A DNA stretch of 64,000 nucleotides, from contig CACVBU010000600.1 of the NCBI GenBank assembly GCA_902728285.1, positions 787,558 through 851,557 of the forward strand. The letters run 5' to 3'. Each line of letters starts with the position of its first letter. Within the stretch, counting starts at the first letter, position 1. The notes below the pieces were generated by a model that was given only the letters and a program-made list of their open reading frames with translations, ran no database searches and was not told where the DNA came from. The stretch comes from Clytia hemisphaerica. Taxonomy: Eukaryota; Cnidaria; Hydrozoa; Leptothecata; Clytiidae. Position numbers and translations under genes: made by a program. Shown here in pieces: positions 8,501-61,237 of the stretch.

Positions 8501-10714
8501 CTGCACCCAGTAGGTACTGTAGTCAGCACACACTGGATAACCAGTGCAGTGATGGTGTAAACGGCCCGTTCGGTGGTCGTAGTTAAACAAAGCGGCCCGA
8601 TGCGTTGTACAGATATTCCAATCGGTTTCTACTTTCAAGCTGTACGAATCATGAACAAAATCACAAGTTACTACTGAAGGCACCAAACACTTATTTTGAT
8701 CATTGTTGGTGATAATTGTCAAGGAGGTCCATCCTGTATCATAGTGGTCAACTCCTAGAAATAAAAATACGACAAAGATATTTTAGTGTCTTTATGAAAG
8801 AATTCCAAAGTAAAAGTTAATCTGAAAATATTTTTGTTGCATTTTTCCCTTTGACTTCCAGTCAGTTCTTTTCGGCTGGTTTGTTTTGCTTTTCCTCCCG
8901 TCGCTTACACAGTCCCCCAAAAGTCAACGCGGTCATATTTCTAGACTAGAGAAATATAAAATATCGCAAATATTTCGATGTTCTCGACCCATCAAAATGT
9001 TTATATTTTTTTGGGTCGGCAATAACAGTGTTTATTCACATATTGGGTCATTCCATTTTATATTTATACAAGGAGTGGATGAATATTTCATTTGAAGCAA
9101 CCATTTTCTTAGTCATTTCTTATATTTTGAGTCAGGTATTTTTTTAATTTGTTGTTGGGTTTTTTCAAAATTGAGCCTCATTCTCATGCAAAATTGTTCT
9201 AATAAAAAAGTGTGTATTCTATATTTTCCGTAAAATTGCTTTCTTTGGAAAAGCAAAAATGATAAGGCGAAAACTGTGAAATTCATTTTGTTGGCATGTT
9301 GAAACCATGCCAGTGTTATTAGGCTATTTCACTTGGGAATGGTTTATACATACAGTAGACTCTCTCGAATTCGATTTTCAAGGGAATAAGAACTTAATTC
9401 GAATTACAGAAAATATTTTAAACGATTTTCGGGGGTCAAATATTTTAGTTCGAATTACAGAGAGATTCGAATAATAGAGGTTCGATTTAGAGAGAGTTGA
9501 CTGTAATCAGATTGGATCAATCGGATATAAAATAAAATACCTTCAGCGTCTACATATTCGTCTTTCGTGTTTCGGTCATCAGCAACTAACTCGCAAACCC
9601 AGGGTTGATTATTCTTGTCCACATTGATGGATTTGCATGAAGTATCATATACGCATGCGTCTGCACAATCGAATAATTCGTTCACTTCGAATGTTTTGTA
9701 AGCTGTTGTTGCAATACGTTTGTTCTTTTTGCGAAGTGAAAAGATTCCTGAAATTTGAACATTTCGAAAATGGTATGATAGTTATGGATTGGTAAGTTCT
9801 CTGGTGGAACTTAATAGAGCAACGATACTATCTACTCAGAAATTCCATGGTCCCACTATGTCTCATCCGATTTCTTCCGATTATGTTATTATGTCTTTCA
9901 CGTAAAATTCTGAAAGTCTAAAATGCTTTAAAACAAATCTTTTGCGGCTGAAATATTTTTTTCTGATTCAATAGTGGGATATCAGATATATCTACAATAC
10001 CGGCCATAGTATTTGAGAAAAAAGGGAAATTCCCACGAAATCTTATAGCCACAATCGATTTGGAAGCACTCTAACTTAAGTTGGAAGGTTTAACTCTGAT
10101 ATTTAACATAAACTTAGAATCTGAGGATCCAAAATTCCAAGAAGGGTCTAATAGGGCTCAGAATATGGCCTGGAAACCCAACCCAAATTGAAATATTCGA
10201 TTAAATTTAACAAATAGCACAAAAGCCATTTTCTTGCCCGAACTTTAAAATGCTAAAAACGAGGAATTAACCAAAATTCTCAATATATTTTGACCGATAT
10301 TGTAGATTCATAGCCTTCCGTATTGATACTAGATTGTATACGGGATACATCTAACCAAACTAAAAGGATTTCAAATGTTTGATTCAGTTGACTCTCTTTA
10401 ATTCGATTTTCAAGGGACTGAAAACTTTCTCCAAACTAGAGAATGATTCGAGTTACGGAGAGCAATTTAAACCACTTTCCAGCTGAGGGGACCAATAATT
10501 TAGTTTAAATTACAAAAAGATTCGTATAAATAGAAGTTCGAATTAGAGATAGTTGACTGCACTTCAGATGCAGATGGAATATATATATGATGGAGAATCG
10601 TTTGATACCTTCATTTGTGTCTGGTAGACGAATAATATTGTGCGTCGAAATTGTCTTGATCAGAATTGCAACGGCACAAGCAAGGTAGAAATAACAAGAT
10701 AATTGCTTCTTCAT
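2527..10714 (-). CDS. Secreted PAN/apple + PA14 domain protein (complete, 6 exons)
   Basis: Exons (minus strand, 5' to 3'): 10609-10714, 9541-9747, 8431-8754, 5110-5260, 4529-4693, 2527-2698. All junctions are GT-AG and phases agree, giving 374 residues. Residues 1-24 form a signal peptide (hydrophobic core LACAVAILI). About residues 36-103 are a PAN/apple-like module with CADAC, SCKSIN and WVCEL motifs, the cysteine pattern common in invertebrate PAN proteins. Residues 104-211 are a cysteine- and aromatic-rich stretch that I cannot assign. About residues 212-374 look like a PA14-type beta domain: RMEAYFIPPTTGNYRF, then LACDDMC, then YYVELLRREWDYGDHAEIQF, matching the PA14 order of fibre-like strand, 'DD' turn and 'YyvEvlh..g.gdh' strand. 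The protein is probably extracellular, with PA14 binding carbohydrate or matrix. Introns 1 and 2 carry related small repeats and intron 5 a MITE. The ATG follows directly from the signal peptide. Function unknown. Confidence 0.82.
2748..2965. repeat. MITE-like element in the last intron of the PAN-PA14 gene
   Basis: Ends GAGTTTATGTAT and ATACATAAACTC form the terminal inverted repeats. Internal 'acggta' and 'taccgtc' blocks are also inverted. Related 'taccgtcct' blocks occur near 20371-20465. No ORF. Confidence 0.5.
3072..3169. repeat. Near-perfect palindrome, about 98 bp
   Basis: The sequence starts CCCAGCTG and ends CAGCTGGG. Between them ACACAACGTTGTTTTAAC is answered by GTTAAAACAACGTTGTGT, and ATCTAACGTT by AACGTTAGAT. 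It lies in the last intron of the PAN-PA14 gene and would form a long hairpin. Confidence 0.8.
3371..4053. mobile_element. hAT-like MITE with 8-bp target duplication
   Basis: Ends CAGTGGCGTTGTGG and CCACAGCGCCACTG are inverted repeats of the CAGTGGCG type common in hAT elements. Flanks CTCCTCAA (3363-3370) and GTCCTCAA (4054-4061) agree in 7 of 8 positions, fitting the 8-bp duplication of hAT. Inside, the phrase GCGAGCGAAGCGAGCGAAAA occurs twice (near 3688 and 3840). Homopolymer C and G runs sit just inside both ends. No transposase frame. It lies within an intron of the PAN-PA14 gene. Confidence 0.75.
5461..5685. repeat. MITE-like element with arms of about 70 bp
   Basis: The left arm (containing AGCAGATTTATATG, AGTCACGAAAAAACGTC and AAGCTCTGATTGG) is answered by the right arm in reverse complement (CCAATTAGAGCTTTACTTGA, GACGTTTTTCGTGACT, CATATGAATCTGCT with small differences). 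The loop is about 80 bp. It sits in the 3.2 kb intron between 5260 and 8431. A partial relative appears near 3016-3055. Confidence 0.65.
6329..6708. repeat. MITE-like element with long terminal inverted repeats
   Basis: The left end AGGCGAGACCAATTTAATTT continues as GTTGTT; the right end is its exact reverse complement (AACAACAAATTAAATTGG then TCTCGCCT). Inside, CCGACCGACC blocks are repeated near both ends. About 380 bp, no ORF, intronic. Confidence 0.8.
7053..7096. repeat. Short strong hairpin
   Basis: AATATTGCCC and GGGCAATATT face each other across two bases, and the stem continues outward (GTACTGA / TCAGTAC) with a one-base bulge. About 20 paired bases. It lies in an intron of the PAN-PA14 gene and is not explained by any gene feature. 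Confidence 0.75.
9351..9505. repeat. Small inverted-repeat element (GACTCTCTnnAATTCGA family), copy 1
   Basis: Ends TACAGTAGACTCTCTCGAAT and TTAGAGAGAGTTGACTGTA are inverted repeats. The body contains several AATTCGAATTACAGA-like words. It ends 35 bp from the donor of the PAN exon 9541-9747, in the intron. Related copies lie at 10384-10560 and, degenerate, near 55690-55775. Confidence 0.7.
10384..10560. repeat. Small inverted-repeat element, copy 2
   Basis: Ends CAGTTGACTCTCTTTAATTC and GAATTAGAGATAGTTGACTG match the element at 9351-9505. It lies in intron 1 of the PAN-PA14 gene, about 50 bp from the exon 1 donor, so neighbouring introns carry the same family in the same place relative to a donor. 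Confidence 0.7.
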
Positions 10715-11905: not shown

Positions 11906-14606
11906 CAGAGATTTGGGAAAAGAGGATAAGAAACGCCGCTGCCGCTCGCTGTTTTCCTATTCTTTCCCTTTGAATTCGGCACCCTTTGAAGAAGCAAGGC
12001 TGTAGAATAGTTGAGCAAGAAGGAAGGTCGAAACAAAATGGCGTTACGTACAGGTTAACCAATGTTCAAGAAAGAAGTCCTTGAATAAAGCTTTCCAGTG
12101 GAGTTCTTTGTGAAAAAGAGACTGGGGAGTGAAACTTTGATCTTCTGGGGGTTTCCCCTGAGAAAATCGAGGAAAATCATTCTATATTCTGGGAGTAAAG
12201 ATGGCGGACATGAGGCATGCTTGAAATTTTGAAAACTTGGGACCAATTTCTTTCTGGCTTGTATTGCTCTGAATGAATTTTTTGTGTTGCAGACATAATT
12301 TTTATGGGTAGTAGGAAGGTTGATTGTGACCACCTATGCCTTAGTTTTCCATGGCACTCTCTAGAACTTCTCGGCATTTTGATTTAAGATGGGCAATATC
12401 GGTTGATAATGTTGTTGTTTTTTTCAACTTTTAGATGAAAAAAATTGTGTAATCTTAGAAAAACTTCCTCCATGGTAATGGAATTGAGATTCAGTAAGTA
12501 TACTTGATTTCCTCTGTGGTACTTTTAGCTTTATCTAGGGAAAGCATTGACTTTTCGGTTGGAAATTTCAAGTTTCGACAACAAAAACATTGCAAAGTTC
12601 AAATAACTTTAACTTGTGATATATATAAAGTCTGACTATTGATTGGCCATGATTTTGGCCCGTCAGTGGATTGACTCACAAGGCTTTGGCAATTTTTCAG
12701 CCAAAACATAATTTCATCGGTGGACTTTACAGTCTGTGTTAGGGTAATTCATACAGATTGCTTACAAAAAAGCCCTAGTTTTACAGTAGATTTTCATTTT
12801 ATATATTTTCAGGCTAGTTATCGTCATTTTCTCTATGAAATACTGTTTATAACAACACTTCCCAGAAAAACCAGCCCACAGAAAGTTAAGTATTGGCCAT
12901 CCAAGCACTGGTACAATGAAACAAAGATTGACTCAGGATGACTCAACATTTTTGCATTTTGACCTTCACGTTAAGGCATAAGGGAAAAGTATGCTAAAAG
13001 GGGAAATTAAACCTGCAGAAACTATATTACGTGCATTATTTAGCTTGAACAAAACAGAATAGAATGGAGTAATATATAAATATATGCAATGGATGTTGAT
13101 ATTTTGTAAATGTTTTCTGGACAACCGTGGATATGAACAGTTAAACCTGGTTGAGCACCGCCTACATATCCTTTGAAATTGGATATATACTTGGAAAATG
13201 TTCTCTGGAAAAAGTGGATTACCATACACGTATTATGTAAATTTGATTAGTCTGGAGAATATTTTTCGAATCTGCATTTATTTGGATGTTTGTTTTGTAT
13301 CCATGTTGTCCCTGGAAATATGGTCCAAACAAGTCGTCAGAGCCAGGGAACACGTGGGCCAAATTTACCAAATGTAAACAGACTAGCAGACTAGAAGACC
13401 TCAAAAGTGCTTCTTTTTAAATTCTACAATATTCTACCTGGACACATATTTTCACTTGTTATATACTGTAACAAGTTTTTCTGAGCACAATCATTATTTT
13501 GCCAATATTTTTTCCACATGTAAATGTATTTAATTTTTTAGCAATGAATTACACATGTAATTGGATTTAGTCCTCTATGGGGCATATTAATATAATTTTC
13601 TAGTCCAGCTTTCAAGTTATACAATCTGAATCAGTACTAATTAAAAATCAGTTGTAAGGTTTTGGTCTTTTTTTATAGTCTTCTCAATTTTATTTCAAGT
13701 TAAGTAATGAATGATACTGATTTTTTTCATGCAATACGTCTTTATTTTCCCAGGTGTTATGAATGAAGGTGAATCATAAAAAAACCTTTTTGGGTTTAAT
13801 CTTTTTTAGAAAAATTTCAAATTATAATACACTTTTATTATACTGTTTTATTTGCTAGATAGATATATCATGATATCAGGGGAAATCCCTATATGGAGCT
13901 GTTTTGTATAACTATTGTATTTTTTTCAATAATGTTTTTGGATTATTTTATGCTTTATTGTTTCGAGTTCATATAAAGCTCTTAAAAGAAAGATTTCATG
14001 ATATTTGTGATCTTCTAGCATTGATATCATGGATTATCATCGCTTCTTTTTTCTTTCTTTCTTTTGAGCTCTATTTTTGTCCTGTTTCCAATTTGTTCTA
14101 ATACCCAACATCACTACCCGGCTGAAGAGGCCTCCATGATATTGTTTCTGAGAAACTCTAGTCCAAGAAATAACAAAAAAATATCCTAGTTTTACAAGCT
14201 TATCATTTTTGGTTTTATAATGTGAATTTCAATTCTTTTAGCTACAGTATGTATAAATTGATGCGATCATTCTATAAGGAAAATATTTTGGTCAAAGCTG
14301 GGAAATTCTCCCCTTCAAGCACAACGACGTAGGCTTGAGAAACACTGCGTTCAAAGTGAAAAGTGCTTATAAAAAATATCAAAATCCGCGATTAAAAAAA
14401 AAATTATTTCACTTTCGATATCAATCACGGCTGCCATTTTTTGTTTGTACTTCTAGTCTTGTGCGCATAACGAATCAAGCGCTCTGATTGGTCCAAAATA
14501 AAAACAATCGATCGGCCGCAGACATTTCAATAGAAACAAAAGATTCTACAGCCTAGCTTCAAATAGATGAATAGCGCATTTCTTATCCTCTTTTCCCAAA
14601 TCTCTG
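11906..14606. repeat. 2.7 kb unit bounded by inverted repeats
   Basis: Positions 11906-11933 and 14579-14606 are an exact 28-base inverted pair (it begins CAGAGATTTGGGAAAAGAGG). Further inward a second pair, GGCTGTAGAAT near 11997 and ATTCTACAGCC near 14543, continues the arms to about 100 bp. The centre is AT-rich with no recognisable transposase. It could be a non-autonomous DNA transposon or two copies of one short repeat in opposite orientation. Confidence 0.55.
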
Positions 14607-15397
14607 CTCTTATTTAAAAAGAAAACCTTTAAGCAAATTAATATAAAAAGGGTTTCTCCCGCTCCAGGCGGCAATATCTGGCAAAGAGCTTCTAACGTCA
14701 CTCTACATCGTGATAAAGCTAAATAGAAGGGGGTTCTGTTACAGGTTAAAGATACTTTCCCTGCCGGTGTCGAAATGTAAACAGTGCTTTAAAATTGAAT
14801 CAACATTTTTATGCAATTTTTTTAGAACTAATTAGGGTCAGAAATAAGAACAATCCTGAGGTCAAATTAGTAAAAAAAATATCTAAAGAATCTGTGCCAA
14901 AGAAAAAAGTACAGCGAGTTTTGTCACAAATCAGCTGGTTCTTATAAAAAAAGGTTTTTTTCTATATATAGCTCTTTTTAATTAACATACGAAGAATATA
15001 AAAAAGGGAACGCCCTGTGGGCACAATAAATCAAGCATCTCTGACATTTAAATATAATCGCCTTGAGTAATATAGGAACAGCCGAGCCTCGACAAAAATT
15101 CACTGTTTCTTATAATAGAGTTGACGTCTAAATGAGACAGATCAATGTTTGAAATTAATCTCATTTTCACTGGAAAGCGAAAGTCGAAACAAAACGTGAA
15201 TTGGATTAATTCTAAGATGTGATATTGATTTGATTGGACTTAATCAAAGTACTATTACTTTCGATAGCAATTACACTCATTTTCATAAATTATAATAATA
15301 GTCCTCCTTAATCTAACTTGTCTAAAGAACAATTTTGGAGATGATGAATGAGGTCGACAAGTTTTTGGTATGAAGAAAGAATGTTTGTGTTTTGCAG

Positions 15398-18300
15398 ATT
15401 GGCTTCTGCTATGGGCCTGCTTATGATGCTGGATGGGTGCGATCAAGGTATAGATAATTATACTTTGTAGCCCCACCAGCTACAAGTTGTTTTTTCATTA
15501 AAAAAAACATAAGGCTTTGATGACTAAAAAGGTCTTTAAGGTCTTTAAGGTCTTTTTAATACCCAAATGAAGGTATAGATTTTTTATCGAACCATATCAA
15601 CCATGGATAAGCCTTCCCTGATAAATGACCATAAATGCACTTTTATTCTGGAAGAATTTTTTCTCCTTTGTCTCTTTAGCTCGGATTTTTGAATATGCTG
15701 CCCCACGAGGTCAAAAGCCATGGACAGAAGACGAATGGCTAGGTCTTAACTGTTTGGTGGATGGGAACATACACTCGAAGGAGGATCCTTTTGCATCTCC
15801 TAACTGCTGGATAGGCTGGAACAAGAAGAATGTCACAAAACCATATGTTAAATTGAGATTTGGCAATATATACAATATCACTGACATTCTGTTAAGGACC
15901 TATATCAACACTGGGGAAATATCACCGCTTGGAAATGTCATCGTAAGAACTTCACCAAATGCATATTTATACTACTTCAGGAGTTATACGGACACAAATG
16001 TAACGATCCAACGCTTCTGTCTACGGGGAAGACTTTTTAAGGATGTAGAGTCTCATCGAGTTGTGGATATTGTACTTCATGTAGGTGGGCTTGTGGTAGA
16101 ATCAATGGAAATCGAGATGGAATATTCTGTTGGAGATGTGATTTTCTTGAGACAACTCACTGCTTTTGAAGGTTCATTCCATTCAAACCATTTTTCTTTA
16201 AAATATACATTTTTCTTATAAACAACATCAATTTTCGGGTCAGGGCTGAAGTTACTTAACATTCTAGCTCATTTTCAGAAAAATTTATATTGACCACCAC
16301 TGATATGCCGATATCTGACCTCGGCTCGAGGACAAGTTAAGTCTCAAACTAGCCATACAAAAAAGGTTGAATAAGTCCTATAAGCGTTTCTTAAACATTT
16401 TAAATAGTCAAAATCATTTTTTTAAAGATGGCACGATGCCGCCATCGACAGACTTTGTGAATATCCTTCCAACACAAAGCAATTGTACAATCCATTCATT
16501 GGGTGAGTGTCTTTTGTCTCTCAAACGCCTTTTACTGCTTTGAAAAGGTCTCTTTGTTCTAAATCCAAGGTCCCTGATTGTTTTGAGGATCTATAATGAG
16601 GCCCCCCAGCGGACCTGATTCACACAATCACACAAATTTTTTCCCCCCCAAATTCACGCATTCACGCAATATTTTTTCGCAATTCCCGCAATTTTTGTTC
16701 ACGCAAAGCTTTCCAATTCACGCATTCACGCATATTTTTTTTTATTTTCATGCATTCACGCAAGTGAAAATACCCATTCACGCATTCACGCAAACCGATG
16801 GGGGCCTATAATCCAATTTGAGTTGGCAAGGTATTTCAGAGTAGATTTTTTCCATTTTTCAGGTGCTCTTTCTTCATCAAACTCTAAACTAATCATGTAT
16901 GGTTGCGTTGCTGCCACTTCGGCTATCTTATTGATTGTTGCTGCTGGAATGCTTTGGAAAAGGTAGTTTACATATTAACTAAAGTTATTATCAAAATATA
17001 CATATTAGTCTGTCTCAGTATGATCTACAGCAAAGATATAGAAATTGAATTAAATAGCGGCTTTGTGCTTGTTCAAAAGACATTCAAGAGTAGAATATTA
17101 CCAAAGGTAAAAAGTTTGGAAAATGAAGGAATTTAACACAAAAAATGTGGGGGGAGCCAATATAAGATCTCCCTTAGGCCCCTCCCCTCCGAAGGCCCTG
17201 CCCCAAAAGCGCCAAATTTCTTTTTATCCAAACATAGACTTATTTTATCAATGGATGCGCAACTTGAAACGGAACTACAGAAAATCTTGAAAGTGAAGCC
17301 AATAAGAGCTATTCAAAGAATACTGTCTATTTTTTGAGAAAATCTGACTAATTCTTGTCATCTTTTTTGGTGTGATTAGCCTCTAGCTCACTTTCTGAAT
17401 TGGTGGATGTAAACTTATCTTCTGTAAGGATACCTACTTCCCTAACTTGGTACTTTCAGGCATGTTTTACCCCCAGGTGGTGTCAAATAAAGATTTTGGT
17501 TTTGGTAGAATGATACTGTGTGTAGTGAAAATATCAGGAGAATTTACAACAAAAACACACGTTACCCTGTTTATGAATTAGATTTACCAGTGGTGTCGGC
17601 AAATAAACTTGGGGGGGGGCACTGGGTTTGCGGACTGACGGTATGTGCGGGCCAAAAATTGTCTTTTAAAATTGCACCCTTACAGTGCAGCAAAAATCAG
17701 TGAAAATCATACCCTCAGATTTTCCCCCAAATTTTCGATCCGTTTCGTGCAAAAAATGGTCCAAATTCTAGCATTTTTGGTCAAAATATCTAGATTTTTC
17801 AAGAATTTTCTGAAATTTCTACCCTTACAGTGCATCTCTAGTTTTTCCGACCCTTACAGTGTAAGTAAGTAAGTAAGTAAGTAATGAATTTATTTGTCTA
17901 AATAAGCGAGACGAGCGACCACACTCATAGACATAAAGCTAAACTAAGGAGGTGGCCGCACGCTACTGTTACAAGAAAAAATAGTTTCTAAGATCTTACT
18001 AGGATACATTGAAAATAAATTTTTTATAAAATAGCAATAAAGAAATGAAAAATTCAGAACGAAACTCGAAAATCGTAAAAATTAAGTATATGAAGAGAGG
18101 AAATATAATCTTGTTAAATCTTTGAGACGATCCAATGTTAGTGTAGAGATGTCGTCATAGGCTAGGTATTTTTGTATTTCGTTCCAAATCGAAATAGATT
18201 GGTATAAAATTGAGTAATTACCATAAGTCACTGTAGTTACTTCAGGAATTTTTAAAAGACCAGACTTACAACGAATTACATTATGACGGTCAGTATCATT

Positions 18301-20937
18301 TAGACGCCTATATTCAAGACTTTGCAGAAGAGGAAGAGGTAGCTTGTGATTTTAATGTGCATAATGTGCATATTTTAATAGTGCATTTTAAACATATTGG
18401 AAAAGGTACCCTTAGAACCCGCACATATCCGTCGGTCCTTTTTCCCAGCTGCCCCCCCCCCCCCGGGTAAACTTTAGGCGTACAAACTTTCGTGAGCAGA
18501 AACTTTTGCAAGGACTTTTGCGAAATTCACGACATTTACTTTCGTTCGCGAATCAAGATGTAAAATTGAGAATTTTTACATGGAAAAATGGTTTAGGGGG
18601 ACAAATACTTCTTGGATTGGCTCGAAACATTTGTCCTTTGACTTATTAGTCTTTTAGCAGGCTAAAAAGTGCCATAAAACATTTTATTCAAAGTTTTAAG
18701 TTTTACAGAAATCCTATTTTGTCAAGAATTTTTCGCGAGCATAAACTTTCGCGAATAGCCCTTCCTAGAATTTTTAAAGACTTTTCGCGAAAAAGGTAAA
18801 AAATTCGCGAAAGTTTCTGCTCGCGAAAGTTTGTACGCCTAAAGTATGCTCAAAACTTTTATAAAATGAGATAGAAAGGCTTTCTTACATTTTAGCTATA
18901 AAATATCATGTGTAATTGTTATTATGGAATATAATGACTAAAAAATAAAAAATGATGTTATAATCATGATGTTTGGTAAAAGCTTCATTGCTAACTCAAC
19001 TGTGTTGTACAATTCCAACCTGAAGTCTGCAAGGCAATCAAATTTCAAAATAATTGCTTAGTGTATAATCTGCTTGTATAATCCAATGAGGTTAGATTGG
19101 AAAGGTTAAAAGGTTAAAAGGTTGAAATGCAAGAGATGTGACCAATTTCAATAGCTATGAAGCTAAACTTGGATCAAAATTTTAATTGTTTTGTCATGGT
19201 ATTTATCGTTTTATGGTATTTTACTTTCTGTGTTGCAGAATTTTCTCTTTTTCGTTATATTCCATCATTTTACATTGTATGACCACTTTTGGGAAGGTTT
19301 CAAGAGAATCCAATCATTTTTCATTTTAACGTCCCCTATAGCATGCCCATAGTAAGCGATATATTAGACGATGCTATCGTCCGCCGTTAGAGGGTCAGTA
19401 AACGCGGGAAAATTATATGCACAAAGTCAGGACGTCAGGGCGGTTTACGGGAAAAAAGTGACGCTAGAGTTTGGAACAAATGCTGTAAACACCTCCGCCA
19501 CTGTTTACTCCGCCCCCGGGCTATTAACCACCGTTTTCAAATTCATCCCTTTTGTAGTGATCTTGTGTAGATAGGATCGATAGGATCGTCTAGCGATATA
19601 TATAATCATAGGAAGTATAAAGGTCCGCGAATCAGACTTATATCAACATCTACTTAATATCGTATTCATACAGGCGACGGGCAAGCAAGATAAAAAGAAA
19701 ACCGTCAACGGTTCGGTGGAATACACATGTGTACGAGGAAGTACAAAATGCAGGAGCACGAGAAGACTTTACAGAACAACCATCGGAAAATTACACGCCA
19801 TTGCAGATTGAACACTATGAGCAACCTTATCTCAGTCTCGTCACACACGATCATGTAACCGTCAAGCCACAAGTTGACTCTACCACGACGATTGATGGAT
19901 ACACAGCTCTGCAACAGCATCAATCAGAATATCCATATCTTGATTTAACAAATCAACCAAAAGTAACAAAGGAGATAACGCTTCAAGAGAAAAGAGCAAA
20001 AATTACCAGAGATAATTCTAGTGTTGACGAACCAGGGAACAAAGTAGACAACAACAACAATCACGACGAAAAACAACAATCAAAATCACAGTATGAAGAC
20101 AATGAAAGCGTAATCAATGAAACAAAGCCATCGTATGATTACAATCAAATGAAAGTGAATGAAGAAAAGACAATAACACCTTATGCAACAGGCGAGTCCA
20201 TTTTCTTTCTGAATATGACGTTCTTTTCTTTATTACCGAGTTTATGTATGTGTGTGTTTTTCTGTAACAGGGACGGTTTGGTTCTAATTTGCCTACATCC
20301 TGACTGACTGACTGACTGACTGACTGACTGACTGACTGACTGACTGACTGACTGACTGACTGACTGACTGAGGACGACGGTAAATTAGCACACTTTTAGA
20401 GCCACTTTTACCGTCCTGGATTTTGCGAGTTATTCTACATCGCTTCACTCCCTTTACCGTCCTCAAAAGTGCAAATACATAAATTTGCTATTTAGAAGCA
20501 TGAGTCTACACTCAAACCAAATTACTCTATGCTTAAAAATAATGATTACATAAGAATTAAGTCACTTGTTACCATTCTCCTACGAAATTCTATCAAAGAG
20601 ACACTCCTCTCAAACCTCTAAGCTGATTGAACGTCCAATAATGAACGACTAGTTATACTCTTTGTGAGAACAATGAAGCTCAGAGAAGCCAAAAATAAGT
20701 GCAATTTAAAAAGTTGGGTAAAAGGCCGAAAGTAATTTTTGCCCGAAAAATAAGAATAGGAGATGAACAATTTTAGGCTCAAAATGCCAAAATAGTAAGA
20801 ACAAAAATTTACTGATTCTTATAAAAAAGGGTGCATCTTTAATATTGTTTTTTTTTCTAGTGCAATGTGACGACCTGACTGACAGCCTACCCATCGTGCA
20901 ATTCGTTGCACCGAAATACTTAACCGACGAAAAGTAA
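15398..20937 (+). CDS. Discoidin-receptor-like single-pass protein with ITAM tail, no kinase (5' partial)
   Basis: Exons: 15398-15447, 15680-16171, 16428-16502, 16863-16962, 19674-20191, 20861-20937; phases agree, giving about 436 residues, with the 5' end unresolved. The ectodomain (FEYAAPRGQ, then a 'LVDG' segment, CWIGWNKKNVTKPYVKLRFG and N-glycosylation sites NVT and NIT) matches the order seen in the DS-like second domain of discoidin domain receptors ('SYTAPVGQ', 'LaDGv', 'YVGW', 'GYvEieFeF'). The first small exon ends LDGCDQ, like the 'ELYGC' end of the first discoidin domain. A membrane segment (GCVAATSAILLIVAAGML) is followed by a basic stop-transfer (WKRRRASKIKRK). The roughly 200-residue tail has no kinase but many tyrosine motifs: YEEV, two ITAMs, YEDN, YNQM, YATV. 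Intron 5 uses a GC donor (CAG|GCGAGT), and its 3' exon is the least certain part. The gene stops about 800 bp before the 3' end of the opposing kinesin, so no room remains for a kinase domain. Confidence 0.75.
15528..15558 (+). repeat. Short tandem repeat AAGGTCTTT x3
   Basis: Three near-identical 10-base units (aaggtcttta) in the intron just upstream of the DS-like exon of the receptor gene. Confidence 0.7.
16598..16807. repeat. MITE-like element with internal ATTCACGCA tandem words
   Basis: Ends GAGGCCCCCCAGCGG and CCGATGGGGGCCT are inverted. ATAAT flanks both ends. Inside, 'attcacgcattcacgcaa' words are repeated several times. It lies in the intron between the stalk exon and the membrane exon of the receptor gene. 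Confidence 0.65.
17861..18340 (-). mobile_element. 5'-truncated non-LTR retrotransposon (LINE) tail
   Basis: On the minus strand an open stretch at about 18090-18335 reads LPLLQSLEYRRLNDTDRHN, then GLLKIPEVTTVTYGNYSILY, then SIWNEIQKYL and an end in stop. This order (an R-rich segment, 'IP.trt..yG..Sf', 'WN.lp') is the usual extreme C-terminus of LINE reverse transcriptase ORF2 proteins. A 3' tail of about 210 bases follows and ends in six copies of TTAC (17861-17884 on the plus strand as GTAA). Short tandem tails of this sort are typical of CR1/L2-type LINEs. The 5' end is cut off near 18340. It sits in intron 4 of the receptor gene, in antisense orientation. Confidence 0.65.
18471..18845. 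repeat. MITE-like element rich in TTCGCGAA words
   Basis: Ends ACTTTAGGCGTACAAACTTT and AAAGTTTGTACGCCTAAAGT are exact inverted repeats, followed inward by CGTGAGCAGAAAC / GTTTCTGCTCGCG. The interior is built from repeated TTCGCGAAA words. About 375 bp, intronic in the receptor gene. Confidence 0.8.
19365..19592. mobile_element. MITE with 9-bp target duplication (Mutator-like), copy 2
   Basis: Ends TAGACGATGCTATCGTC and GATAGGATCGTCTA. The flanks carry the identical 9-mer GCGATATAT (19356-19364 and 19593-19601). In the opposite orientation to its relative at 1761-1973. It ends 81 bp before the exon that encodes the receptor tail. Confidence 0.88.
19792..19839 (+). other. ITAM 1 coding segment (YTPL-x8-YLSL)
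   Basis: In the receptor tail exon, the frame reads E-N-YTPL, eight residues, YLSL, which fits the ITAM consensus YxxL/I-x(6-8)-YxxL/I with an acidic residue two positions before the first tyrosine. In known ITAM receptors, double phosphorylation by a Src-family kinase recruits the tandem SH2 domains of Syk/ZAP-70. Confidence 0.85.
19900..19947 (+). other. ITAM 2 coding segment (YTAL-x8-YLDL)
   Basis: This second match to the ITAM consensus reads D-G-YTAL, eight residues, YLDL. It shares the pattern YTxLQ...E.PYLxL (one-residue shift in the middle) with ITAM 1, so the two probably arose by internal duplication. Confidence 0.85.
20301..20370. repeat. (TGAC)n microsatellite
   Basis: About 17 perfect copies of TGAC/ACTG in the last intron of the receptor gene. 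It is followed directly by an inverted ACGGTAAA...TTTACCGTCCT repeat to about 20465. Confidence 0.95.
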
Positions 20938-21755
20938 AATCAGACACAGCCCTCAAACAAAGCTGACAATATTCTTTTGCATTGTCCTTCTAATACTACA
21001 CGTTTTTTATAAGAATAAACTATATAAGAACACAAGGCTTCCGTTGCCAAAATGTTAAGAACAAGTTAAGATTGTAAGGCTTTGTGGGCTCTAAAACGCC
21101 TGTTTTCTTAGGAAAATGAACAAAAATACTCAAATAATGCTGAAAATAAGAGCATGTTAAAAACATATTTAGGCTTCAAACCCTAAAGTTAAGAACACCT
21201 AAATGCTTCCAAATTTTTGGATGTTCTTATAAAAAAAACGTGTATGAATAATATCAATTGGAAGGGTACAATTAATTTAACTCCGCCTTTTTGGTCAATC
21301 AAATGCATGCGATTTTATAAGTAGACTGTTCAAAAGATTTAATGACCAAATGGAATAATTACTTTGAATGCTTCAGGTAGATGAAAGAGTGTCTTTAATT
21401 GGTAAAAGTTTAAGCAGTTGCGTTGACACTTGACTCAGAAAAAGTGTAAAATAACGTTGTTGGAATCGTACATTATTCTATCAAAAGAAATTTCTTTTCA
21501 TATCACAAAATATATTTATAAGATTCTCATATTTACATTACATTTGTCAAGGTATTATTTCATAATAATTTTTAAAGTGTTTATAACAAAAAATATGTTT
21601 CATTATACAGTGCGTTTCAAAATGAAAATTATTATTTAATTTAAAAAAAATAAATTGCCATCAAATGGAATCAGTAACATCAAAATTCAAGTTTAATTTG
21701 TATTCATTTTTACTAGTAATTCATTCATTATCTATTATCTATAATTTTTATTCAT
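20938..21755. other. Short spacer between two convergent genes
   Basis: No exon seen. A polyadenylation hexamer AATAAA for the plus-strand receptor is at 21014-21019. On the other strand AATAAA (plus-strand TTTATT at 21747-21752) lies just after the kinesin stop. The stretch 21040-21240 has repeated 'gttaagaac' and 'aaggctt' words related to 2275-2450. Confidence 0.5.
21014..21019 (+). terminator. Polyadenylation signal AATAAA for the receptor gene
   Basis: A canonical hexamer 77 bases after the predicted stop codon at 20935-20937. Confidence 0.5.
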
Positions 21756-24700
21756 TCATTCGCGAGTTTCGTTATAGCTTTCAGTTGTAGTATCCATGTA
21801 ACGGCTTATAAACATGTCTGGGCGAACGTCAGAACGACGTCCTTTGAACTTCTCTTGAACTTGTGGGTGAATAGCGGACATATCCAAAGAAGTTCTATTT
21901 AACGGACACATAGATGCAGTTCGTTGCAAGGAGACTTCTGATTGGACGAACGAGAGAATGGAATGTTCCTCGTGTATCCCAAGATCTTTTTCGATCTCTT
22001 GAACCACAATAGCTACTCCAACGCGCACAGTTTTTCCAGCGAATTCGAACTTCTCAATACAAGAGCGTAACAGAGATAAAGTTTCTTGATCTAAGTTCTT
22101 TTTAGTTGATAAAAAAGCTACAAGATCTCGACCTGCTTTGCAGATACATTTTGTGGTATCCGCAAGCTCCACAGGAATATCCATGAAGTCTTCTATTGCA
22201 TCACAGTTAGAGGCAATTTGTCTCGATTGCCCGACAATATTAATGACACTCTCGTTATAATCAACAACAGAAGTGAGAAATTTCCGAAGGATAAAACACT
22301 CTTTGACATAAAAGACGGTCGTCTCCGAAATGTTGATGTCAGCATAAACCATCTAGAGTGACAACATTTTATGATTGATTGAATGAAAAGAATGATGATT
22401 AAAATTCGTATGTTAAATTTCGACTCCACGGAATTTTAGTATAACAAAAGGAAAGATATGAAAAATCTTTTTAACACAAAAAAGGTAAATATGCAACATG
22501 GTAGAAACAGCGGTAGATTTGGCAGCATATTCTTTCTAACGGACGCACCGGAATTCACCCTCTTCTGTGTATCAAATCATGTCGTACAGGGTGTAGATTT
22601 TGATGCTTCTCAGATTTCTGGGTGTTTTCACAAAGAGTAGGAGGTTTGATGCAATCTTGACTAATTAACTTGATTAATTTATAAGCGCGATAATGAGGGT
22701 TTTTCCATAGAGAGAGGCAGATGTTTGATTTGATTTAGGGATAAACAAAAACAAATACAAATAACAATTTCTAATTCGATTTTCAAGGGGAATCGCATAT
22801 TCACCCAATAAGGGATCGTTTCGAATTGTAGAGCTGTGACGATTTCATGGGCAAGATTGACAAAAGAGAATGTTTCTTTGTGATGAAGGACAATCGACTT
22901 CAAAGCTTTTGTAGCAAAGAACCATGAGCCAAAATATCGAAATGATACAGGGATGGGGGGTGGTAGACTTACCATAAGGTCTTTACACCTTCGAATGAGG
23001 GTAGTTGTTGATGTCAGAATGTTCATAACACCATCCACCAAATCCTCCGACATCTGGCGGAGAAAAAGTATCGAGAATCAATGAGGCTTTTATGTCGTTT
23101 ATAATACATACAGTAATATAGATGTTATAAAACATGTTATATATAACAATGTAATACTGTAACTGTTTTATACAGGTTAATGTTGTAAAACCTACTCTCT
23201 TTCTTAAATTTATTCGTTCGGTATGCTAGACTAATAAGATGTGGAGAATGACTGTCCTTTCACTACGCACAGAAATTGAAACCACGACTACATATTCAAA
23301 TGATTCACTGTTTCGCTCGAACTACAACTACAGTCAATTTTTCATACCTCGTGGGTTTGTGTGAGTTGTAAGTGTTTGATATTTTGGACACCTTTCACGA
23401 CAGTGTTCAATGCTTCATCCATCATGCTGGATAAGAAACGGTTTTGTTGCTTCAAGAAATGTATGAAGATATCGTTCTCATCGTCCTAAAAATTAAATGG
23501 AAGTTTTCTGATACATACTTCCATGATAGTATTAAGGCCGGTCTCCACTTTCGTGCGAAATGGGCAACAGTTTTTTGCCCGAAGAAAAGATTACGTCATT
23601 TTAAAGAAGTTTCGCTCGAAAAAAAAAAAAGTTGAAGGAAGTTAAATTTTTCTCATCTGTTCCGTCAATTTCGACCAATAGAATTACTTCATTTTTGAAC
23701 CGACCAATGACCTTATACCATAAACGTCAAAAAGTTTTCGCTCATGTCGCACAAAAGTGGAGACCGGCCTTTAGCATGGTTGTGCGGAAGGTGTATTGTC
23801 ATGTCATTTTCGCACAAGCATGGTAGAAAGCCCAAACTAACATGACCATACTCAGTAGTTTCTAGGATTTTTTTAAATTGCTAACCGAATAAGAGATTTT
23901 GATTAAAGAGTCAACATTGATCGGGATTTTCAATGTTGAGCAAAAATATAAAATCTAAGAATGCTTTATCTCCAACTGTTGTGCTATAAGTGCCCGAACT
24001 GACATGGTTTTAACATTCAGCAGTCTCTAGGATTTTTGTGAATGATAACTGAGTAAGCGGAAAAAAAAAGGGTTAAAACTGATTAAGATTTTTAATGCCG
24101 ATCAAAGGATGACTCATCTCCACTCCAACTTCAACTCACGTTATCAATGTAAGAAATCTCGTCATTGGTCTCATCCAGGTGGTCGACAGCTGAAAGTGAT
24201 AAAGCTCCAGTCAACTCGATCAATTGGTAAATCAAATGTTTAAACTGCTTTTTGATCAACTCCGTACTATCCTCTCTTTGCTAAAAAAAGTGCATAGATA
24301 TCGATTTTTAAGTTAGTTAAGACACTCTGTGCCAAATCCTTTTTGTGCCTCTTCCAGAAAATGTTCGTACATGAGGGTGGAGGATATAGTGTCCGGGGGG
24401 TAGTGGAAAATCTAAAAAATTTGCCTTGCCCGGGGGTAAGCTTGCTCTGTTTGGGGGTAATATTGCTCTGTTTGACAGGTATTTTGAGTGTCCAGGGGGT
24501 CAACTATGCTTGTCCAGGGGTTAGACCTGCTGCCTGGGGGGTCAATGTCCGGGAGGTAAATTTCCAAAAAATGTTAGATCCTCTACACCCTATATTCAAA
24601 TTTTTTCTGGAAAAGCCCTTTGCTATAACATAAGAAACTTTGATGGTTTTAGATTAAAGCGTGTTTATTGTGTCCGTGCTCGTCGTCATATGAGAAGAAT

Positions 24701-57868: not shown

Positions 57869-60271
57869 TCACGCGAGGCCAATTTTCTTCAAACGTCTGC
57901 GATCAAACTCCTTAGTATTTAATTGAGGCTGAAAAAGCATGACGAAAAGTTTATAGCCATACAATAAAACAAAATGTATAGTGTTAAAAATCAAGGTCAC
58001 AAGTAGGACGATATAATTGCGATAAACTTTTGATTCTTGTGTAAAGTATATTGCTGTAGACGCAACGAATACGATTGCCGAGATGAAGGATGAATAGATC
58101 ACGTGATTTGTTTCTTGGTAACGCGATGGAAGTTTGCGTGCACGAAATCCTTGGATACCGTTGCTAACAGACAAAATAGTTGCCATGAGTAACTGGACGT
58201 AGATCATGAGTTGGTTACTGCAGTTATATTCCTTGGTAAGGGAAGAATCAAAGTATCTTGTTTCTATGGTAACCGGTTTGTTGATTAGCGATATCAAATG
58301 AAGCAATCCATTAACGGTAAGAACAAATAATATGATGATCCATTCTGAAGCTTTTGTCATTAAAATCTGTGATCTGCTCATGCGCACTTTACAACCAACG
58401 ATCATAAACAGTTTCTGAGATTTTGAGATGTTGATAGATAAAGTGATACTGAATGAGAGACCAAGGAAGATTTGACGTCCCAAACAACTTCCTGGTGTAG
58501 TGATAAGAAACAAATAACTTGGCAAAACAAAAAGAAGAAGATGGTTTAGTAACTGGAGCATTGTCATTTTACGATTTGCTAATTTGACAATCGGTGTTTC
58601 TCGCTTGTTTAAAAACGCAACCATAGTGAGTAACGTTAATATGGTTAGAACTCCAGAGGGAATGATCACTGAAAACAGGATCCATGATTTCGTCGGGTCA
58701 AGTGTAAATTCTGTGTAAGGATCATAACAAATGGTACGGCCAGAGTTCACAATAAGAGGGTGTGAGCATTTCTGACATTTATCCTCGTTCCCAGGGTTTG
58801 TTTTGTAGAAGAATCCTTGGCATGGTCGACAGTTCCAACCATAACCTTGTGTCCACTCATTGTCTTGATAAAAAGAATGTACAAGTTCTGCACCTGCTTT
58901 GCATGATGGTTTCTTTGTATTGCATTGTGGTCTTGATTGAAGAGCTTTAGCTGGATTGAATGTCTTTAAAGTGAAAAGTCTTTCCCCAGAAATGTTCTCA
59001 ATATAATAAGCTTCTTTCCAAAGTGATATGAGAAGCAGAACTGTATCCTTCTGGGGTAACACTTGCTCAAGCGCATTTTCAATGATAAAACGTGGAATTT
59101 TCAACCACTGTTTGATAGTCACTTTGTCTCCACATTTAAAATTTCCATCAACAAATTTAAACACTTGACAACCAAAATTCTTTCGAAGCAAATCTTGAAA
59201 GTTATCATTGTTTAACAGTTGGTTAGTAATGGTTTTAAAGTTTACACTTGGGTCATATTCAAAGAGTAATTGATGGTAGAAATTGAATGCGTAATAAAGG
59301 AAATAATTAGTCGCGAGTGAGCCTGGCACATTAAACAATACATTCCCTTTCTTGTAAGACAAAGCTTGGTTCAGTTCTAAGTGATCAATGTTTTTAACTT
59401 TAGTGAGAAAAGAAATAGCGAATGTTTTAGAAATGTACTCTTTATCGATCTGCGCATGGCTTCTAAAAATCAAATCAGATCTTGAATCGCCAGCTATCAC
59501 CAAAAATGAAAAGTTATTCTTTTTAACCAAGTCCATAGCTGTAGAGACATCTGCTTCTCTGTTTACATTCACGTTCAACTCTTTGTAACAATCGCCTGGG
59601 TTCGAATCGATATAAAAACACATAGCTGAGGAGGTTGGGTTGGTAGCACAGCGTTCTCTTGTCGAAACTCTGTTCGATTCTCCTTGACCGAGGTTTAAAA
59701 ATGCTAAGTAGGTAACGTTAAGTCTGTTTTTAATACCAATAAATTCGTTGTGTATGTCAACTCCGAAACTTGCTTCGTAACTGTAAATGGAAAAGGGATT
59801 CTCTTTCAAGTATGCTGGATACATCGGTTTATCTGTAATACTTATCAGAATAAACGAGTCCAATGGCAGAATGATGGAGCTGGCAAATCGAGTCAAATCG
59901 AATGAAAGATAAGTCAGAATAAATATTTGGTCTAATGATCCTTTATATACGCCGTTTTTGTTTTGACAATTCATTTTGAAGTGTTTTTTCTCATCCGTGG
60001 CTAGCGGTAAAAGTGTGTCCATTAGTACTTTTGAACTGTTTTTCATATCTTGGAAACAAATATTGGTTTTGTACCAAAACTCTTTCTGTCGGTGATTCTG
60101 TAGTACGGAGTTCTGGTTAACCAGGGCGTTGGCGCACTCAAACTCCATTCCTGTAGCACACCTAGTTGTAGTGAATAAGCCGAGTAGCTGGATTTCATGT
60201 CTTTTTTGAAATGAAGATCTTGTAAAGTACAACAGAAGGATCACAAAACGTGCCATAAATATTATAACCAT
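57869..60271 (-). CDS. Class C G-protein-coupled receptor, intronless, 800 residues
   Basis: A single open frame. I start it at ATG 60271-60269 because it opens directly into a signal peptide (MVIIFMARFVILLLYF); an upstream GTG in frame is not a likely start. Residues about 30-470 form the periplasmic-binding-like extracellular lobe (VDIHNEFIGIKNRLNVTYLA, FLVIAGDSRSDLIFRSHAQI). About 450-528 are a cysteine-rich neck (WNCRPCQGFFYKTNPGNEDK, CQKCSHPLIVNSGRTICYDP). Residues 530-780 give seven hydrophobic helices with the class C features 'RETPIVKLANRKMT' after TM1 and SCLGRQIFLGLSFSITL at TM3 (compare 'TClLRq..fgisF'). There is a short basic tail. Family members are glutamate, calcium or odorant-type receptors. 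The ligand is not predictable here, because the usual amino-acid-binding serine/threonine motif is not obvious. It is a single-exon gene among heavily split neighbours and is convergent with the PLAT-ankyrin gene. Confidence 0.88.
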   Translation of the reverse strand: MVIIFMARFVILLLYFTRSSFQKRHEIQLLGLFTTTRCATGMEFECANALVNQNSVLQNHRQKEFWYKTNICFQDMKNSSKVLMDTLLPLATDEKKHFKMNCQNKNGVYKGSLDQIFILTYLSFDLTRFASSIILPLDSFILISITDKPMYPAYLKENPFSIYSYEASFGVDIHNEFIGIKNRLNVTYLAFLNLGQGESNRVSTRERCATNPTSSAMCFYIDSNPGDCYKELNVNVNREADVSTAMDLVKKNNFSFLVIAGDSRSDLIFRSHAQIDKEYISKTFAISFLTKVKNIDHLELNQALSYKKGNVLFNVPGSLATNYFLYYAFNFYHQLLFEYDPSVNFKTITNQLLNNDNFQDLLRKNFGCQVFKFVDGNFKCGDKVTIKQWLKIPRFIIENALEQVLPQKDTVLLLISLWKEAYYIENISGERLFTLKTFNPAKALQSRPQCNTKKPSCKAGAELVHSFYQDNEWTQGYGWNCRPCQGFFYKTNPGNEDKCQKCSHPLIVNSGRTICYDPYTEFTLDPTKSWILFSVIIPSGVLTILTLLTMVAFLNKRETPIVKLANRKMTMLQLLNHLLLFVLPSYLFLITTPGSCLGRQIFLGLSFSITLSINISKSQKLFMIVGCKVRMSRSQILMTKASEWIIILFVLTVNGLLHLISLINKPVTIETRYFDSSLTKEYNCSNQLMIYVQLLMATILSVSNGIQGFRARKLPSRYQETNHVIYSSFISAIVFVASTAIYFTQESKVYRNYIVLLVTLIFNTIHFVLLYGYKLFVMLFQPQLNTKEFDRRRLKKIGLA

Positions 60272-61237
60272 ATCTTGAAAAAGAAAGTCCACTTCAGTGA
60301 AATTTAACTGTCATTCGAGTAAAAAAACAAGTATTAAAATTCAAGTTCAGTAATATTACTTGATATTAGTTTGTTTGAAAAATCTGTTCAAACAAAATAT
60401 ATTGCATGTGTCGTTTGATTTATTTGGCTTGAAGAAGGAAGTAAACTCACTGACATTAAAAACAAACAAACATAGTAAGCAGATTTTTAAAATCATTTTC
60501 GCAGAAAGTAATTTAAAGAAACTGGCTTATCAACCACAAATTACCAGTGATAAAAATCTTTACCATTTAAAATCTGATCGAAAAGAATGTTTATAGCTTT
60601 CAGAGCAATTAGATTCGTCATAGTACAATTATTGCCAAAACAAAACAAATTTGAGAACAGTACAGTCTCTAGAGATTCGAGAATTAGAAGTATCTCAACG
60701 TGAAGATTTTATGAGACATTTAAGGAAGGGAAATATTAAGAAGAGTAAAACCTAAAAAAAGAACCCTGAAAGAAATCGACAGTAATTAGCGGTTTCACAT
60801 CTTTAGAGAGAAGTTTGAGATGTAAAATGACGAAGAACAGTTTAGTTTCACAGTTGAAAATTTGTTGGAAGTTTTTAATATCAGTCAAACTTTTTCGAGA
60901 GTAATAGTGTTCGTTCACACGGCAAAAATATCGGCCTTAAAATTAGAAAGGTTTAACAGAAGAATAGGGAGTGTGGTGATTGATCTACTTAAAAATTTGT
61001 TATTTTCTGTATAAATATGATTGAATAAGTTTTTCTAATAAGTATTATAAAGAATGAATAAAAATGTATAAAGAAAAAAAATCCTAACTAGTTAGATACC
61101 GATACAAATGTCAATATTATCTACATGATGTCAAAAAGGGTTAAAATTTACAAATCTTGATTATACTCTTGTTATATTAAAGAAAATATCCCTTGCAAGG
61201 CTGAGTTACCCAGAATAACTCGAAATAACCACTTACC
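60272..61237. other. Spacer between GPCR start and thymidylate synthase stop
   Basis: About 1 kb, very AT-rich, with no exon or clear repeat. The GPCR promoter must be here. A 78-codon plus-strand ORF (60360-60596) has no support. Confidence 0.45.

Follow-up and report, generated by a model that had tools for sequence, protein, structure and literature searches.

A predicted discoidin domain receptor paralogue of Clytia hemisphaerica with two ITAMs in a kinase-free tail

The window analysed here, a stretch of 64,000 nucleotides of the Clytia hemisphaerica genome (C419:787558-851557; the genome searched comprises 417 Mb in 951 contigs), holds on its forward strand a six-exon gene model at positions 15348-20937, the compatible splice phases of which give a frame of 453 amino acids predicted from sequence only (Table 1). 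The predicted order of domains is a signal peptide (recognised by eye), one discoidin-like domain, one transmembrane (TM) helix and a tail devoid of kinase. With the start at 15348, the GC donor of the tail exon and the stop at 20937 held fixed, 18 combinations of splice sites stayed open, among which the 453-residue model was picked by the appearance of the sites. The exon positions agree with those given in a preliminary description of this DNA, and the start may lie at 15348 instead of 15398: the ATG at 15348 opens a plausible signal peptide (by eye), the alternative being that 15398-15447 alone is exonic. Exon 1 was also considered as the final piece of a discoidin (DS) domain, its LMMLDGC recalling the LELYGC-like ends of such domains, and this was not favoured; with a profile of three DS-domain ends, the exon 1 frame was not among the matches listed. 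The tail exon seems to be followed at 20192 by a GC donor (AG/GCGAGT), that is, by a GC-AG intron, and this last intron contains a GACT tetranucleotide repeat at about 20301-20371 (by eye). Elsewhere in the window, the reverse strand carries at 9458-9781 a frame from a neighbouring gene with a PAN domain (PF00024, 26.2 bits), and at 57872-60310 a frame of 813 codons that includes the seven-TM domain of class C GPCRs (PF00003, E 7e-25).

Table 1. Predicted features of the ITAM-bearing gene model, in positions of the window
Feature	Position	Strand	Basis
Exon 1, probable signal peptide MRSTSFWYEERMFVFCRLASAMGLLMMLDGCDQ	15348..15447	+	open frame from ATG, GT donor, phase 1
Exon 2, DDR DS-like domain	15680..16171	+	flanked by phase 1 introns; C211 match
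Exon 3, short extracellular linker	16428..16502	+	splice phases, codon score 0.217
Exon 4, TM exon	16863..16962	+	sequence, phases, codon score 0.188 (reverse strand 0.198)
TM segment LIMYGCVAATSAILLIVAAGMLW	about 16889-16957	+	free of charged residues
Exon 5, cytoplasmic tail, GC donor	19674..20191	+	open frame, phases, codon score 0.134
YEEV motif	19732..19743	+	sequence; single motif
ITAM 1, ENYTPLQIEHYEQPYLSL	19786..19839	+	ENYTPL-x8-YLSL
ITAM 2, DGYTALQQHQSEYPYLDL	19894..19947	+	DGYTAL-x8-YLDL
YNQM (YxxM) motif	20140..20151	+	sequence; single motif
Exon 6, C-terminus and stop	20861..20937	+	phase fits, codon score 0.225 in frame

The training set for the codon scores comprised 3,312 codons, drawn from 15 stretches of this genome that are free of stops and were taken as coding, including the DS-like exon of the related C211 gene described below, with nearby noncoding sequence as the contrast set. 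The tail exon and the last exon show a coding signal by this score; for the tail exon, the in-frame value stands against 0.042 and 0.079 in its other frames and -0.186 on the reverse strand. When the frame was extended beyond the GC donor at 20191, the score fell to -0.165. The DS-like exon scored 0.026 and exon 1 scored -0.128, so that exon 1 has no codon support. The value of the TM exon is uninformative because its own reverse strand scores as high, and the ITAM stretch taken alone scored 0.178 forward and 0.175 reverse; since the reverse strand matches the forward one in both, scores of such short pieces say little.

The ectodomain had been likened in the preliminary description to the second domain of the discoidin domain receptors (DDRs), and the evidence for this comes by way of a second gene. 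Searched alone against Pfam and the PDB, the window exon had no match up to an E-value of 10, and single-sequence prediction of the structure of the domain returned no usable fold (pLDDT 35). Searched against the genome (E up to 0.001, best candidates scored), it matched itself and one exon of the C211 gene (39% identity, E 8e-16), and the latter exon, used as a query with E-values up to 10 and the best candidates scored, matched itself and the window exon, the relation thus being reciprocal. Identity between the two domains was 34% by BLASTP and 42% in a MAFFT alignment. The C211 exon passes the profile PF21114 (DDR1-2_DS-like) with 29.7 bits against a cut-off of 27, and it is by its paralogy to this exon that the window domain is placed in the DDR family, and through it that the window domain is taken as DS-like.

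The C211 gene itself reads as a DDR, with F5/8C pieces, the DS-like exon and exons for a TM segment and a kinase. The F5/8C pieces, at 17.5 and 19.6 bits, fall short of the Pfam cut-off of 28.2 bits. Against the PDB, the 11 best matches of its kinase are all DDR1, DDR2 or a DDR1/DDR2 chimera (E 2.4e-61 to 4.8e-55), followed by TrkB (E 4.1e-46). A paralogue that keeps a DDR1/2-type kinase is present, and the assignment of the window ectodomain to the DDR family is borne out indirectly by the reciprocal match, the PF21114 score and the DDR-type kinase of this paralogue; the window exon itself goes unmatched in Pfam. As a separate observation, the C211 DDR (about 165613-178921, reverse strand) may have two F5/8C domains rather than one ahead of the DS-like domain, as hinted by two pieces that resemble the start of such a domain and two that resemble its end.

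Another DDR-like gene that lacks a kinase appears to lie at C455:888204-890531, with an F5/8C domain (50 bits), a DS-like domain (86.3 bits), a TM segment and a short tail in which no ITAM was seen; inspection by eye of frames of at least 75 residues over 40 kb revealed no kinase. The genome-wide search with PF21114 listed C455 alone, the window and C211 domains being absent. As a genome query, C455 matched itself and one further sequence at E 3.9, and neither the window nor C211. A profile built from all three DS-like domains matched DDR1 structures in the PDB (8pe9, E 2.9e-7; 4ag4, E 2.2e-6); this match rests largely on C455, because the profile of the window and C211 domains without it reached 8pe9 at E 1.3. 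The C211 domain alone had two matches in the PDB, neither of them a DDR. Comparison by hhalign of the window and C211 profile, made from too few sequences to be decisive, gave a probability of 1.8% against C455 and 0.5% against an F5/8C exon.

A matrix-sensing role had also been proposed for the receptor. The collagen site of DDR1 is located in the DS domain and not in the DS-like domain (PMC3320712). With the exons of the relatives as queries, the matches listed for the window included no DS domain, and a genome-wide search with PF00754 gave 82 matches, none of them on C419; since that search recovered the C211 DDR as one piece at E 0.69, absence of a DS domain is likely rather than certain. 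Sensing of matrix collagen therefore lacks its main support and is, within the limited sensitivity of these searches, unsupported. In the Ca2+ site of the DS-like domain of DDR1, Asp233 and Glu361 are the side-chain ligands and are conserved in vertebrate DDRs (PMC3320712). According to the alignment, the equivalent of Asp233 is kept in the window domain (LVDG), whereas Glu361 is replaced by glutamine (LRQL); the same position is glutamine in C211 and glutamate in C455. As the kinase-bearing C211 DDR also has glutamine there, the replacement does not exclude membership in the DDR family. Under shear, the DS-like domain of DDR1 reportedly becomes looser, and shear-specific activation is reported to depend on it (PMC10576099), which makes force a possible input for the present receptor and mechanosensing without collagen a concrete hypothesis.

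The 453-residue model stops at 20937 without a tyrosine kinase. The Pfam scan of the tail exon found no kinase, and none was seen by eye among the frames of at least 50 residues at 13000-23000, so that the kinase-free tail claimed for the gene is borne out in the model. The ITAM consensus is [DE]x0-2-YxxL/I-x6-8-YxxL/I in a cytoplasmic tail, and the two ITAMs of the tail, on the predicted cytoplasmic side, are both exact, each spaced x8 and preceded at -2 by an acidic residue. Of 200,000 shuffled versions of the 198-residue tail, 2,883 contained one or more YxxL/I-x6-8-YxxL/I motifs and 8 contained two or more; this count, made without demanding the acidic residue, is a rough bound as it ignores that SH2-docking tails may be rich in tyrosine motifs in general. 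The two perfect ITAMs of the preliminary description are thereby upheld, and the YEEV and YNQM motifs that it named are present in the tail sequence as well. Furthermore, a single TPYATV (TxYxxV) motif straddles the junction of exons 5 and 6. Searched against the whole genome, the tail matched, beyond itself, two sequences with E-values of 1.9 and 3.7, and the ITAM stretch matched itself alone, so that no relative of the tail emerged there. The observation of a DDR-like receptor with an ITAM tail is confirmed at the level of the predicted sequence.

Genes for the proposed signalling partners, Syk and Src, were both found in the same genome. The search with PF00017 gave 56 SH2 matches, 30 of which were translated. 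C340 carries a pair of SH2 exons separated by about 1.4 kb, the second of which, searched by itself, matched the C-terminal SH2 region of SYK (E 2.5e-36) and ZAP-70 (E 1.9e-33), with CSK as the best other protein (E 7.5e-14); kinase exons of Syk-like appearance (HRDLAARN, DFGMSR; by eye) follow downstream on the same strand. An SH2-kinase frame on C373 matches Src (E 2.7e-65), and a frame with SH2 and ankyrin on C421 resembles Shark, a label given by eye. Homologues of Syk/Zap70 are reported in invertebrates having CARD-CC/Bcl10, cnidarians included, and Shark is described as a mediator of ITAM-dependent signals in the same source, which cites work on Draper (PMC5978004).

Taken together, the gene is probably an invertebrate paralogue of the DDRs in which a DS-like domain and a TM helix are joined to a tail with two ITAMs in the place of the kinase, and which would signal through Src to Syk or Shark. 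Provided that it is expressed and spliced as modelled, a ligand, contact or force would cluster the receptor; a Src-family kinase, or the kinase-bearing DDR in a mixed dimer, would then phosphorylate the ITAM tyrosines, and Syk (or Shark) would dock with its tandem SH2 domains on a doubly phosphorylated ITAM and start signalling. The TM helix is free of charged residues and thus gives no hint of a partnership with an ITAM adaptor. In common with DDR1, DDR2 and the C211 DDR, the receptor has a DS-like domain adjoining the membrane, a single TM segment and a predicted type I topology; it differs from them in the lack of a kinase, in the ITAM tail and in that no DS (F5/8C) domain was found, and both it and C211 differ from DDR1 in the glutamine at Glu361. 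It has the appearance of an ITAM receptor with an ectodomain of DDR-family descent and, judged by the defining kinase, is not a DDR proper, and to speak of a rewired kinase receptor seems fair as a statement about its evolution.

That the tail would act via Shark, the SH2-ankyrin-SH2 kinase, in engulfment and in the manner of Draper rather than through Syk, is a tentative possibility, with which the C421 frame and the part of Shark in ITAM-dependent signalling (PMC5978004) are consistent, whereas a Syk gene is present in the genome too. It is unlikely that the protein is a kinase-less co-receptor which pairs with the C211 DDR through the ectodomain or TM segment, serves as its substrate, and either broadens its SH2 docking or acts as a brake on it. 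Such pairing would accord with the finding that each of the two DS-like domains has the other as its one genomic match and with the constitutive dimers formed by vertebrate DDRs (PMC3320712); their TM segments, however, differ in sequence. Quite unlikely is an endocytic or trafficking receptor in which YTPL, YLSL, YTAL, YLDL and YNQM would serve as YxxPhi sorting signals for AP-2 and not as ITAM parts: at least five tyrosine motifs of the tail fit YxxPhi, but sorting signals require no fixed spacing, and the exact ITAM spacing occurs here twice, with an acidic residue at -2. A wrong gene model, in which the tail exon is part of a different transcript or the DS-like and TM exons continue into another tail, possibly with a kinase, is very unlikely, for although the 2.7-kb intron, the GC donor, the unsupported exon 1 and the uninformative TM score leave room for it, the splice phases fit, a basic stretch opens the tail directly after the TM segment, and inspection by eye of the surrounding 10 kb, at the length limit given above, showed no kinase-like frame.

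The reading as a DDR paralogue with its own ITAMs can be set beside other receptors of this kind. The vertebrate collagen receptors GPVI/FcR-gamma and OSCAR/FcR-gamma share with it the ITAM and the logic of Src and Syk; unlike it, they have Ig ectodomains, carry the ITAM on a separate adaptor and have collagen as their known ligand. Engulfment receptors of the Draper/CED-1 type are likewise single chains with an ITAM of their own and signal through Src and Shark, and differ in their EMI/EGF ectodomain. A further-reaching account, to be held as doubtful, is that the kinase of a duplicated DDR was lost and a pair of ITAMs acquired, coupling a discoidin module for contact or force to Src and Syk in convergence with GPVI and OSCAR; this would place a Src/Syk receptor in an animal without adaptive immunity. 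The ectodomains of Hydractinia Alr are of the Ig type, unlike that of the window gene, which matches no Pfam family and the relatives of which are DS-like. On these candidate allorecognition proteins, ITAM and ITIM motifs have been reported (PMC12065747), so that an ITAM tail on a cnidarian receptor is not new. For the combination of a DDR-type ectodomain with an ITAM tail, which was not known to the preliminary description from elsewhere, no report was found in a search that ran mostly outside subscription journals.

If real, the gene would suggest that ITAM signalling can arise by conversion of a receptor kinase lineage, and that early animals used ITAMs beyond the allorecognition receptors of Ig type. 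With a kinase-bearing paralogue and the Syk and Src genes in one genome, the derivation of an ITAM receptor from a kinase receptor would be testable in a single animal.
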